DNA of 64,000 bases from Leptotrichia buccalis C-1013-b (GTDB taxonomy: Bacteria; Fusobacteriota; Fusobacteriia; Fusobacteriales; Leptotrichiaceae): NCBI RefSeq assembly GCF_000023905.1, contig NC_013192.1, positions 2,294,001 through 2,358,000 of the forward strand, given 5' to 3'. Below are positions 33,008-42,331 of the stretch, in pieces. Position numbers and translations under genes: made by a program. The notes under the pieces are model-generated. The model had not been told where the DNA came from. It saw only the letters and a list, made by a program, of their open reading frames with translations, and searched no databases. The first letter of the stretch is position 1. Each line of letters opens with the position of its first letter.

Positions 33008-33200
33008 GTGAACTACTCCCGCTTTTAGAAGCGGGAGCTTCTTGGGAAGTATCTGCTTTTGCTAGCCAAAATATATTTACCAAGCTCTTCGGATAGTTCC
33101 TACCCTGCTTTCTTTTATTTTCCTAATATTCCATCATTTCTTTTACAATGTTTTTTATATTCAATGCCGCATTATAATCTCTATCAATCTCAATTCCACA
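33008..33200 (-). ncRNA. Predicted omega RNA / right-end guide RNA of TnpB (extent approximate)
   Basis: For TnpB-type elements the RNA scaffold overlaps the 3' end of tnpB and runs to the right end, with the guide read from the DNA beyond that end. Here the region from about 33200 to 33008 contains the tnpB tail and the conserved 115-bp downstream segment including the GCGGGAG hairpin, almost identical in the second copy. The guide would be the sequence beginning at 33007 (ATGCGCAAATGCC on the reverse strand). The exact 5' end and folding are inferred from the family, not seen. Confidence 0.5.
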
Positions 33201-34220
33201 GCACTCACATTTATAACTTCTTTCTGATAATTTCAGTTCCTCTTTAACGTTTCCACATTTACTACAAGTTTTCGATGATGGAAACCACTTATCTATCTTC
33301 AAAAATTGTTTCCCTGAAAATATCAGTTTATACTCAAGCATTCTCAAAAACATTCCCCATCCATTATCTCCTACACTTTTCCCAAAATTTAATGCCTGGC
33401 TCATCCCTTTCATATTCAAATCTTCAACAGCCACAGCATTATACGCTTCAGACAATTTTTTCGATAATTTATGTAAAAAATCTCTTCGACAATTCTTGAT
33501 ATACTCATGTAATTTTGATATTTTCACTTTTTGCTTATACCAATTTTTAGAAAATTTCACTTTTCTTGATAATGATTTCTGCAATTTTTTCAATTCTTCT
33601 TCCAACATCCTAAAATATCTTGGATAATCAGCCCTTTGGTTTTCAGAACTGACAAATAATTCAGACATTGAAAAATCAAGCCCAATTACTTTATCGCTAC
33701 TTGGTATTTTTTGAATTTCTTTTTCAAATTCTGTCAAAACAGAAACATAGTAATTTCCATTACTGTTTGTTAGTGTTACCGACTTTATTCTATAATTCTT
33801 TGGTATTTCTCTATGATATTTCAATTTCACTCTTTTCAATTTTGGCAAAACCAAATATTTATTTTCCTCAATTCGTATCGAATTATTCACACAATTTGTC
33901 GTGTAACTTTTAACACTAGTCTTTTTAGATTTGAACCTCGGAAACTTCGCTCTCTTCTGAAAGAAATTCGTAAACGATCGTTTTACATTTAATTGAGCAT
34001 TTGAAAGTGCCAGACTGTCTACTTCTTTCAAAAATTGATTTTCACTTTTCAAACTGGCAGGTGTAATTATTTTATTTTTTCCAGTTTCTTCATAAATTTT
34101 ATTCGCAGTGTACAAAATTGTATTGTAAACAAAACGAACACATCCAAAAGTCTTGTTTATCAATAATTTTTGATCTTTATTTGGATAAATTCTGTATTTG
34201 AATGCTAAATTATATTTCAT
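33123..34220 (-). CDS. tnpB: TnpB RNA-guided nuclease (IS605 OrfB)
   Basis: 365 aa, intact. The N-terminal HTH_OrfB region begins KYNLAFKYRIYPNKDQ. The RuvC-like residues are present: Asp182 in VIGLDFSMSEL, Glu266 in VEDLNMKGM and Asp346/Asp348 in EIDRDYNAALN. A zinc ribbon C-x2-C...C-x2-C is formed by Cys319, Cys322, Cys338 and Cys341. TnpB proteins cut DNA guided by the element's RNA, aiding element retention. All catalytic positions are kept, so it is predicted active. The upstream leader between 34220 and 34415 lacks a tnpA gene. Confidence 0.95.
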   Translation of the reverse strand: MKYNLAFKYRIYPNKDQKLLINKTFGCVRFVYNTILYTANKIYEETGKNKIITPASLKSENQFLKEVDSLALSNAQLNVKRSFTNFFQKRAKFPRFKSKKTSVKSYTTNCVNNSIRIEENKYLVLPKLKRVKLKYHREIPKNYRIKSVTLTNSNGNYYVSVLTEFEKEIQKIPSSDKVIGLDFSMSELFVSSENQRADYPRYFRMLEEELKKLQKSLSRKVKFSKNWYKQKVKISKLHEYIKNCRRDFLHKLSKKLSEAYNAVAVEDLNMKGMSQALNFGKSVGDNGWGMFLRMLEYKLIFSGKQFLKIDKWFPSSKTCSKCGNVKEELKLSERSYKCECCGIEIDRDYNAALNIKNIVKEMMEY

Positions 34221-41149: not shown

Positions 41150-41251
41150 GAAAGTCCACTATTACAAAATCATTGAATAAGATAATAATAAAACAACATA
41201 AGAACAATGACAATTAAATACAGTAACTGTGATAAATTTTTTGATTTTTTA

Positions 41252-41280
41252 TTGACAATTTTATAAAAATAGAGTAGAAT
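41252..41280 (+). promoter_or_regulatory. Strong promoter driving the Abi-linked small RNA
   Basis: Consensus -35 TTGACA (41252-41257), a 17-base spacer, and -10 TAGAAT (41275-41280). Transcription would begin about 41287, only 80 bases before the Abi gene start and directly at the structured RNA. Confidence 0.8.
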
Positions 41281-41286
41281 TAATTA

Positions 41287-41350
41287 TATCAAACCCCCTG
41301 CAGTATTTTAAATAATACAAGGTTAGCATACCTACGCAGGGCTTTTTTTT
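41287..41350 (+). ncRNA. Structured, terminator-ended small RNA upstream of the Abi gene
   Basis: After the promoter, CCCTGC (41296-41301) pairs with GCAGGG (41336-41341), closing a three-way junction with two inner hairpins: GTATT/AATAC (41303-41307 with 41314-41318) and GGT/ACC (41321-41323 with 41330-41332). A C and a run of eight T follow the closing stem (41343-41350), so the transcript looks like a compact RNA of about 60-65 bases ended by its own terminator, with read-through needed for the Abi mRNA. AbiF-type Abi_2 proteins are known to have a partner small RNA just upstream; the position and form here fit. Folding was done by eye. Confidence 0.6.
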
Positions 41351-41366
41351 AGGAGAATTTAAGAAA

Positions 41367-42272
41367 ATGATGGCAAGAGATGAATTTCTGACTTTTAGAG
41401 AACAAGTAAAACTCTTTAAAGATAGAGGAATGATTATTACTGATGAAGAAAAAGCTGAAAAAATATTGCAATTTATAAATTACTATAAACTAAAAGAATG
41501 CTCGTTACCTTATTTTAAAAATGGACAATACACACAAGACATTACTTTTGATGAAATATTAACTAGATTTTATGAAAATAAAAATTTAAGAATCAATTTA
41601 TTAAGATTAACCGAAAAAGTCGAAATTTCATTAAAAACTAAATTTTCTTATTTAATAGGTGAAAAATTTGGAGCTTATGGATACCTAGATTTCTATAAGT
41701 GGGTAGATAAAACAGAATATTGTAGACATTTCCGAGCATTTAAAGAAAAAGATTTTAAAAAAAGAATAGATAGAAGTTTAGGAAATAGTAAAAATGAATT
41801 ACTTGAAACATACAAACAAAATCACAATAAAATACCAATATGGCTAGTAACAGATATTTTGACATTTGGGGAAATATTAGATTTATATAAATTGTTATAT
41901 AAAAAATATCAGAATAAAATAGCTAAAGAGCATAATTTATCTGGAATTATATATTTATCTTGGTTGGAAAATATCAATTTAATTAGAAACTTGTCAGCTC
42001 ATAATTCAAATATTGTAGATATAAAATTTTCCACAAAACCCAAAATATTAGATAAATTTAAAAACAAATTATATTTTGTTAATAGTAAAATATCCAATAG
42101 AATAGGAGTGTCAATTTTAATATTAGAATATTTAATTTTTGTAATTAATTTAAAATACCCAGGTGGAGCTATCAGAAAAAGTTTAAAAAAATTATGCCGT
42201 AACAAAACAGATGAAGAAGCTCAAAAATTAGGTTTTAAAGATTTTGAAATAATTAAAAATTTAAAGATATAA
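41367..42272 (+). CDS. Abi_2 (AbiF/AbiD-like) HEPN protein
   Basis: 301 aa, an Abi_2 family protein. [21 protein letters not shown] and [17 protein letters not shown] are the family's N-terminal motifs, [17 protein letters not shown] the central helix. The catalytic HEPN motif R-x4-H is [10 protein letters not shown], Arg207 to His212 (the family norm is RN-x-C-A-H-H, so the Cys is replaced by Ser). Such proteins are RNases of phage-abortive infection and, in work I recall, are controlled by an adjacent antitoxin RNA and related to the ancestors of Cas13. AGGAG lies 11 bases before the ATG at 41367; a second ATG follows at 41370. Cytoplasmic. Its upstream RNA and promoter form one unit. Confidence 0.85.
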
Positions 42273-42303
42273 TCACAGTTATTAATCTAATTGTGATTTT
42301 TTT
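42271..42303 (+). terminator. Terminator after the Abi gene
   Basis: AATCACA (42271-42277) pairs with TGTGATT (42292-42298) followed by seven T to 42303. It overlaps the Abi stop codon, so the stem forms as translation ends. Confidence 0.75.
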
Positions 42304-42331
42304 GATAAAAATAAAATATCAAGGAGGGAAT

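Follow-up and report, generated by a model that had tools for sequence, protein, structure and literature searches.

A putative mobile AbiF-type toxin-antitoxin cassette in Leptotrichia buccalis, with a predicted RNA antitoxin fused to its own terminator

The genome of Leptotrichia buccalis C-1013-b contains a locus that we interpret, with a probability of roughly 0.85, as a mobile cassette encoding a toxin-antitoxin pair of the AbiF (AbiD/F) type, a type III-like RNA antitoxin together with a HEPN RNase. The locus lies in the window, that is, the whole stretch of 64,000 nucleotides that was analysed (positions 2294001-2358000 of the 2,465,610-base genome, G000:C1), and its features are listed in Table 1 by their positions in the window.

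Table 1. Features of the putative AbiF-type cassette of L. buccalis, in window positions
Feature	Position	Strand	Basis
Whole inserted cassette, lying between the MarR/FeoA-domain gene and rqcH	41150-42331 (ends approximate)	+	Empty-site comparison
Sigma-70-type promoter: TTGACA (41252-41257), 17 bp, TAGAAT (41275-41280)	41252-41280	+	11 of 12 consensus matches; position kept in homologous loci
Predicted antitoxin RNA of about 64 nt, made up of the leader AUAUCAA, a closing stem, two hairpins and a U8 tail	41286-41350	+	Folding, covariation
Closing stem, 5' arm CCCUGC (partner of 41336-41341; also the terminator stem)	41296-41301	+	Folding, compensatory changes
Hairpin 1, GUAUU/AAUAC (arms 41303-41307 and 41314-41318)	41303-41318	+	Folding, near relatives
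Hairpin 2, AGGU/ACCU (arms 41320-41323 and 41330-41333)	41320-41333	+	Folding, covariation
Closing stem, 3' arm GCAGGG, then C and T8 (41343-41350): intrinsic-terminator end	41336-41350	+	Sequence, fold
Ribosome binding site AGGAG, immediately 3' of the T run	41351-41355	+	Sequence; homologues also have one
abi_2: 301-aa HEPN protein of the Abi_2 (AbiD/F) family, predicted to be an RNase toxin	41367-42272	+	Family, profile and structure matches
Terminator-like hairpin 3' of abi_2, AATCACA/TGTGATT followed by a T run	42271-42303	+	Read from sequence

We hypothesize that a single promoter would produce a short RNA folding into a three-way junction, and that the closing stem and the U tract would end most transcripts, a layout from which an excess of RNA over messenger may be expected. 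Rare read-through would then give the mRNA of a HEPN RNase which, to judge from its family and motif, has an R-N-x-x-x-H active site. By homology with RCd22/AbiF and PbAbiF, the free RNA would bind the protein dimer and block the active site; its loss or degradation, for instance in phage attack, would leave the RNase to cut RNA and growth would stop. One stem belongs to both the antitoxin fold and the terminator, and a bound protein might therefore also strengthen termination and hence limit toxin synthesis. Toxicity of this protein, its binding by the RNA and phage defence by the pair are inferred from the analogous systems, and carrying the binding mode of PbAbiF or RCd22 over to this RNA is an assumption, because the shape of the RNA differs from that of the Rfam abiF motif.

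The protein matches the Pfam Abi_2 family with 120.9 bits (cut-off 25.6; 9.9e-35) and the PADLOC AbiD model at 7.5e-51 (residues 2-292), a nearly full-length match that it has in common with lactococcal AbiD/AbiD1/AbiF. The homologues of Lactococcus phage TP712 and proPhi1 are accompanied by the same RNA type as in L. buccalis; the sequence collection searched yielded none of the founding lactococcal plasmid copies. The sole convincing solved relative is PbAbiF bound to its ncRNA (PDB 8vz6; structure as cited in PMC12373285 and PMC12737573), which was recovered by sequence (5e-21) and by profile (1.9e-32). With 21 viral homologues in the alignment, AlphaFold gave a model (pLDDT 92, pTM 0.87; another, made without an alignment, reached pLDDT 39 and was discarded) that retrieved 8vz6 in Foldseek at 1.7e-12, with no other significant match, and in VIA-align 2 with Z 23.6 over 282 residues. 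The next VIA-align 2 ranks were Cas13d chains (Z about 7) and an archaeal HEPN protein (4.7); a Z below 8 may mean a common arrangement, and the Cas13 rows are taken only as agreement with the literature. The HEPN R-phi-x3-H active site is present as R207-N-L-S-A-H212, with R207, N208 and H212 invariant in the 22-member alignment, and R207 and H212 align with R210 and H215 of PbAbiF, the double mutant of which is described as inactive, as far as PMC12373285 relates it. The Abi_2 protein with an R-x4-H HEPN motif, proposed in a first-pass annotation made from the sequence alone, is thus confirmed by family, fold and motif. The same annotation noticed that the cysteine found in most of the family before the active-site histidine is here a serine; this is correct, but it is a feature of the clade and not of the strain, being observed in the Leptotrichia-group homologues and in one further locus (L032).

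The compact RNA with a closing stem, two inner hairpins and eight T was found as the annotation had placed it. Its minimum free energy (MFE) is -15.9 kcal/mol (z -2.83), a value equalled by 4 of 200 shuffles and thus better than 196 of them. A standard terminator scan of the locus returned no hits; it misses this terminator because the stem encloses two hairpins and not a short loop. Without other loci, promoter and fold are no more than suggestive, and it is the comparative evidence that makes both real. Upstream DNA of Abi_2 homologues was collected from Fusobacteriota genomes and from phages and plasmids, and 20 upstream RNAs (Fusobacteriota and Bacillota phages) were aligned with MAFFT from sequence only (alignment A1). 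The 12 pairs tested for covariation belong to the closing stem and hairpin 2, and shuffled and slid alignments served as controls. In A1, 91.8% of the cells were paired, vs 72.3% in shuffled and 33-49% in slid alignments. Changes on both sides were observed in all 12 pairs (shuffled mean 7.0; none of 500 shuffles reached 12) and further pair types numbered 27, against 18.3 after shuffling (0 of 500 as high). Covariation of the stem among homologues, the observation on which the annotation had made its RNA depend, is therefore present, and the slid controls fail to reproduce it. In hairpin 2, 100% of the cells are paired and all four pairs changed on both sides. The closing stem CCCUGC/GCAGGG of L. 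buccalis becomes CCAUGC/GCAUGG in L029 and CCUUGC/GCAAGG in L031, and hairpin 1 varies among near relatives as GUACC/GGUAC and GUGUC/GAUAC. Folded individually, 18 of the 20 A1 RNAs give the three-way junction, and nearly all homologous RNAs have a T run of at least 5.

A conserved CAA forms the 3' end of the unpaired leader (C5 in 40, A6 in 39 and A7 in 43 of 43 RNAs; this set, unlike the 20 of A1, was partly picked by the covariance model described below and its counts are biased towards it), and the loop of hairpin 2, UAGCAU in L. buccalis, is more commonly UACGU. These elements bear on the possibility that the RNA is a cis-acting attenuator or terminator only, which would keep abi_2 expression low with no action on the protein. 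A closing stem and T8 immediately 5' of the ribosome binding site would suit such a role, as would the observation that the RCd22 region by itself strongly lowers reporter activity in Clostridioides difficile; however, two inner hairpins with compensatory changes, a conserved unpaired leader and a conserved loop would all be superfluous for a plain terminator. Furthermore, RCd22 neutralises its toxin in trans through direct binding (PMC12373285), and we consider a purely cis-acting role improbable. In the same C. difficile study AbiF is toxic and its R/H mutants are non-toxic. A riboswitch-like leader sensing a ligand or stress, in which phage infection would refold the RNA and let transcription pass into the defence RNase, is an idea also raised by the C. 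difficile authors (PMC12373285) and in agreement with the leader position and the terminator fusion. It seems unlikely here, since no competing antiterminator fold was found and the MFE and centroid structures agree; it would, moreover, add to an antitoxin role and not replace it.

An RNA antitoxin should keep company with its toxin gene, and a covariance model of the RNA (R1), in which the L. buccalis RNA scores 59.2 bits, was used outside its training set. In 74 viral Abi_2 loci retrieved by protein similarity only, 61 contained an R1 match (E at most 3e-4), always just upstream and on the strand of the gene; a further 11 had a weak score at the equivalent place and the last two come with hardly any DNA 5' of the gene or with none at all. 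Many of these loci come from phages close to one another or to the training phages, and 24 distinct RNAs among the matches are absent from A1; pair counts are above controls also in the fitted alignment of the viral matches. Across 98 Fusobacteriota genomes, all 20 matches scoring more than 39 bits are followed by an Abi_2 gene or its remains, the remnant being, in two cases (L080 and L093), a short Abi_2-like start only, judged by eye. The Abi_2 genes beside these RNAs are intact in 11 cases and broken or reduced in nine, and no intact gene without an upstream RNA was observed among the 11 examined in the clade; the intact gene of G059 has no R1 match and a different terminated stem occupies the RNA position. 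RNAs beside broken genes, and never the reverse, are the pattern expected of a toxin and its antitoxin, and partly an effect of size, since the RNA is a 14-fold smaller target and is partly expected to outlive the gene. We also noticed, in L361 and ten similar viral loci, a reduced 40-nt RNA (ATATCAAGTCCCCGGGCAATTATGTTCGGGCTTTTTTT) at the equivalent place before Abi_2 genes, which may be a minimal form of the R1-type leader and terminator.

The annotation had also pointed to a consensus promoter with a 17-bp spacer. It is present, and by itself it is weak evidence and not significant, because such sites often arise by chance in AT-rich DNA (21 comparable sites were observed, vs 16.4 expected). 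Among 20 homologous loci, 15 nevertheless keep a promoter with at least 10 of 12 consensus positions in the equivalent place, vs 1.35% of shuffles. With a conserved structured RNA, a promoter and a terminator all found, the AbiF-type layout recognised by the annotation, in which a short terminated RNA lies upstream of an RNase gene, is well borne out.

The RNA and abi_2 travel as one cassette, since the MarR/FeoA-domain gene and rqcH are separated by 26 bp in two Leptotrichia genomes (G004 and G010), which represent the empty site, and by about 1.19 kb in L. buccalis and three others (G003, G002 and G008), and since related copies are located elsewhere in other genomes. A shortened copy lies between the same two genes in G001, and the hairpin and T run 3' of abi_2 are also found after the 3' gene remnant at locus L050. 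Terminal inverted repeats were considered as the basis of this mobility and rejected, the best pair (41224-41251/42254-42281, 79%) being unconvincing and overlapping the terminator of the gene. That the cassette is a decaying, non-functional remnant in L. buccalis would fit the broken orthologues of several Leptotrichia and the second Abi_2 gene of L. buccalis, split by a frame change, but we give it little likelihood: the reading frame runs uninterrupted for 301 aa and every near-invariant residue is kept, the orthologue of G003 is intact and 97% identical, and the promoter and RNA are intact.

AbiF RNA-protein modules are a known kind (PMC12165695, PMC12373285). The C. difficile AbiF/RCd22 locus has the same succession of one SigA-type promoter, small RNA, terminator, ribosome binding site and abiF, with expression by read-through, and its toxin has a comparable R-N-x-C-A-H motif; however, RCd22 contains the abiF motif twice and has a distinct terminator further downstream, whereas in L. 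buccalis there is one three-way junction and its closing stem is the terminator stem. The Prevotellaceae PbAbiF and its ncRNA AbiFr (8vz6; Zilberzwige-Tal et al. 2025), as represented in the citing papers, resemble the L. buccalis pair in fold over nearly the whole chain, in the active-site R/H and in the presence of a short ncRNA partner, but identity is about 20% and the RNA of a Prevotella nigrescens relative (L071) has no R1 match and forms one branched stem. In the type III systems ToxIN, CptIN and TenpIN a terminator likewise separates an RNase gene from an RNA gene 5' of it, but these have tandem-repeat RNAs and another toxin fold; the L. buccalis RNA region contains no tandem repeats, its RNA being a single unit, and among the matches listed for the profile and structure comparison of the protein there are only AbiF/HEPN proteins.

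Rfam gave no true match on the locus at gathering or permissive thresholds. The abiF RNA family (RF03085) is a stem of 37 positions that contains a small inner hairpin. It was found neither in the window region, where E values up to 10 were allowed, nor in 13 Leptotrichia genomes, and a control scan detected it in C. difficile phage phiC2 (37.6 bits) and in none of the three-way-junction loci included. Judged by these scans, the L. buccalis RNA is not a member of RF03085 and no Rfam 15 family matches it. Terminator-fused stems apparently exist also in other Abi_2 RNAs (L045, L054 and L071), so that the fusion is not unique and the three-way-junction class is what Rfam 15 lacks. We tentatively suggest, as a possibility somewhat on the doubtful side, that these RNAs form a distinct antitoxin class, found in Fusobacteriota and Bacillota phages, whose closing stem would be both antitoxin fold and terminator, so that toxin binding would enforce termination and balance toxin and antitoxin. 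Our literature search found no paper that names Leptotrichia together with a protein of an Abi family.

Cas13 is proposed to derive from AbiF-type modules, the AbiD/F clade having been put forward as its ancestor (PMC12165695). The link to Cas13 made by the annotation agrees with this and with PMC12373285, and L. buccalis itself encodes a full-length Cas13a (G000:C1:1880495-1883938), so that HEPN systems of the proposed ancestor type and of the derived type coexist in one genome. The cassette shares with Cas13 the HEPN RNase, the Cas13d chains ranking next after PbAbiF, but it has no CRISPR array, one HEPN domain and no guide function. What the locus adds is an RNA form that Rfam 15 lacks and that compensatory changes support; it occurs in tens of phages as well as in a genus in which Cas13a is also found. 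Such a compact, terminator-fused RNA offers a simple test of RNA control over a HEPN RNase, a control that may have preceded guide RNAs.

Other RNAs and Abi_2 genes were noticed during the survey. L. buccalis has an orphan copy of the RNA (G000:C1:317343-317405, + strand; L097:5344-5406; 33.2 bits) with no adjoining Abi_2 gene, 22 nt 3' of a second ftsZ-like gene; its DNA is 75% identical to that of RNAs adjoining Abi_2 remnants in G011 and G012, and a remnant, a terminator and a stand-alone antitoxin are all candidates for its nature. L. buccalis further contains a second Abi_2 gene (L002, G000:C1:1628526-1632065) with its own TTGACA-TATAAT promoter and a different short leader with a terminator; the frame of this gene is broken by a frame change relative to its counterpart in G001. 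Other Leptotrichia Abi_2 subfamilies (L003, L005, L010, L012, L015, L017 and L021) each have a promoter and different terminated structured leaders, for example containing GTGANCGT, with no significant R1 match and no Rfam abiF match in these seven loci. In four Fusobacteriota loci (L045, L046, L054 and L098) we identified a second recurrent RNA before Abi_2 genes, with the motif CCACGCC...GCGUACCAGGG in a terminator-like stem, which is probably another AbiF RNA class. An RNA match in a prophage late operon of G041 (L096:6892-6953, 33.3 bits), with no toxin gene, was considered as a phage-borne decoy antitoxin and rejected as unsupported: it is absent from 46 related phage loci, no promoter or T run is evident, a DNA pattern derived from it was too unspecific, and a single such match is near chance when 98 genomes are searched at E 0.0036 per genome. 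Elsewhere in the window, positions 33123-34220 of the - strand contain a 365-aa open reading frame that, by eye, resembles an IS200/IS605-type TnpB, with a zinc-finger-like C-terminal region.
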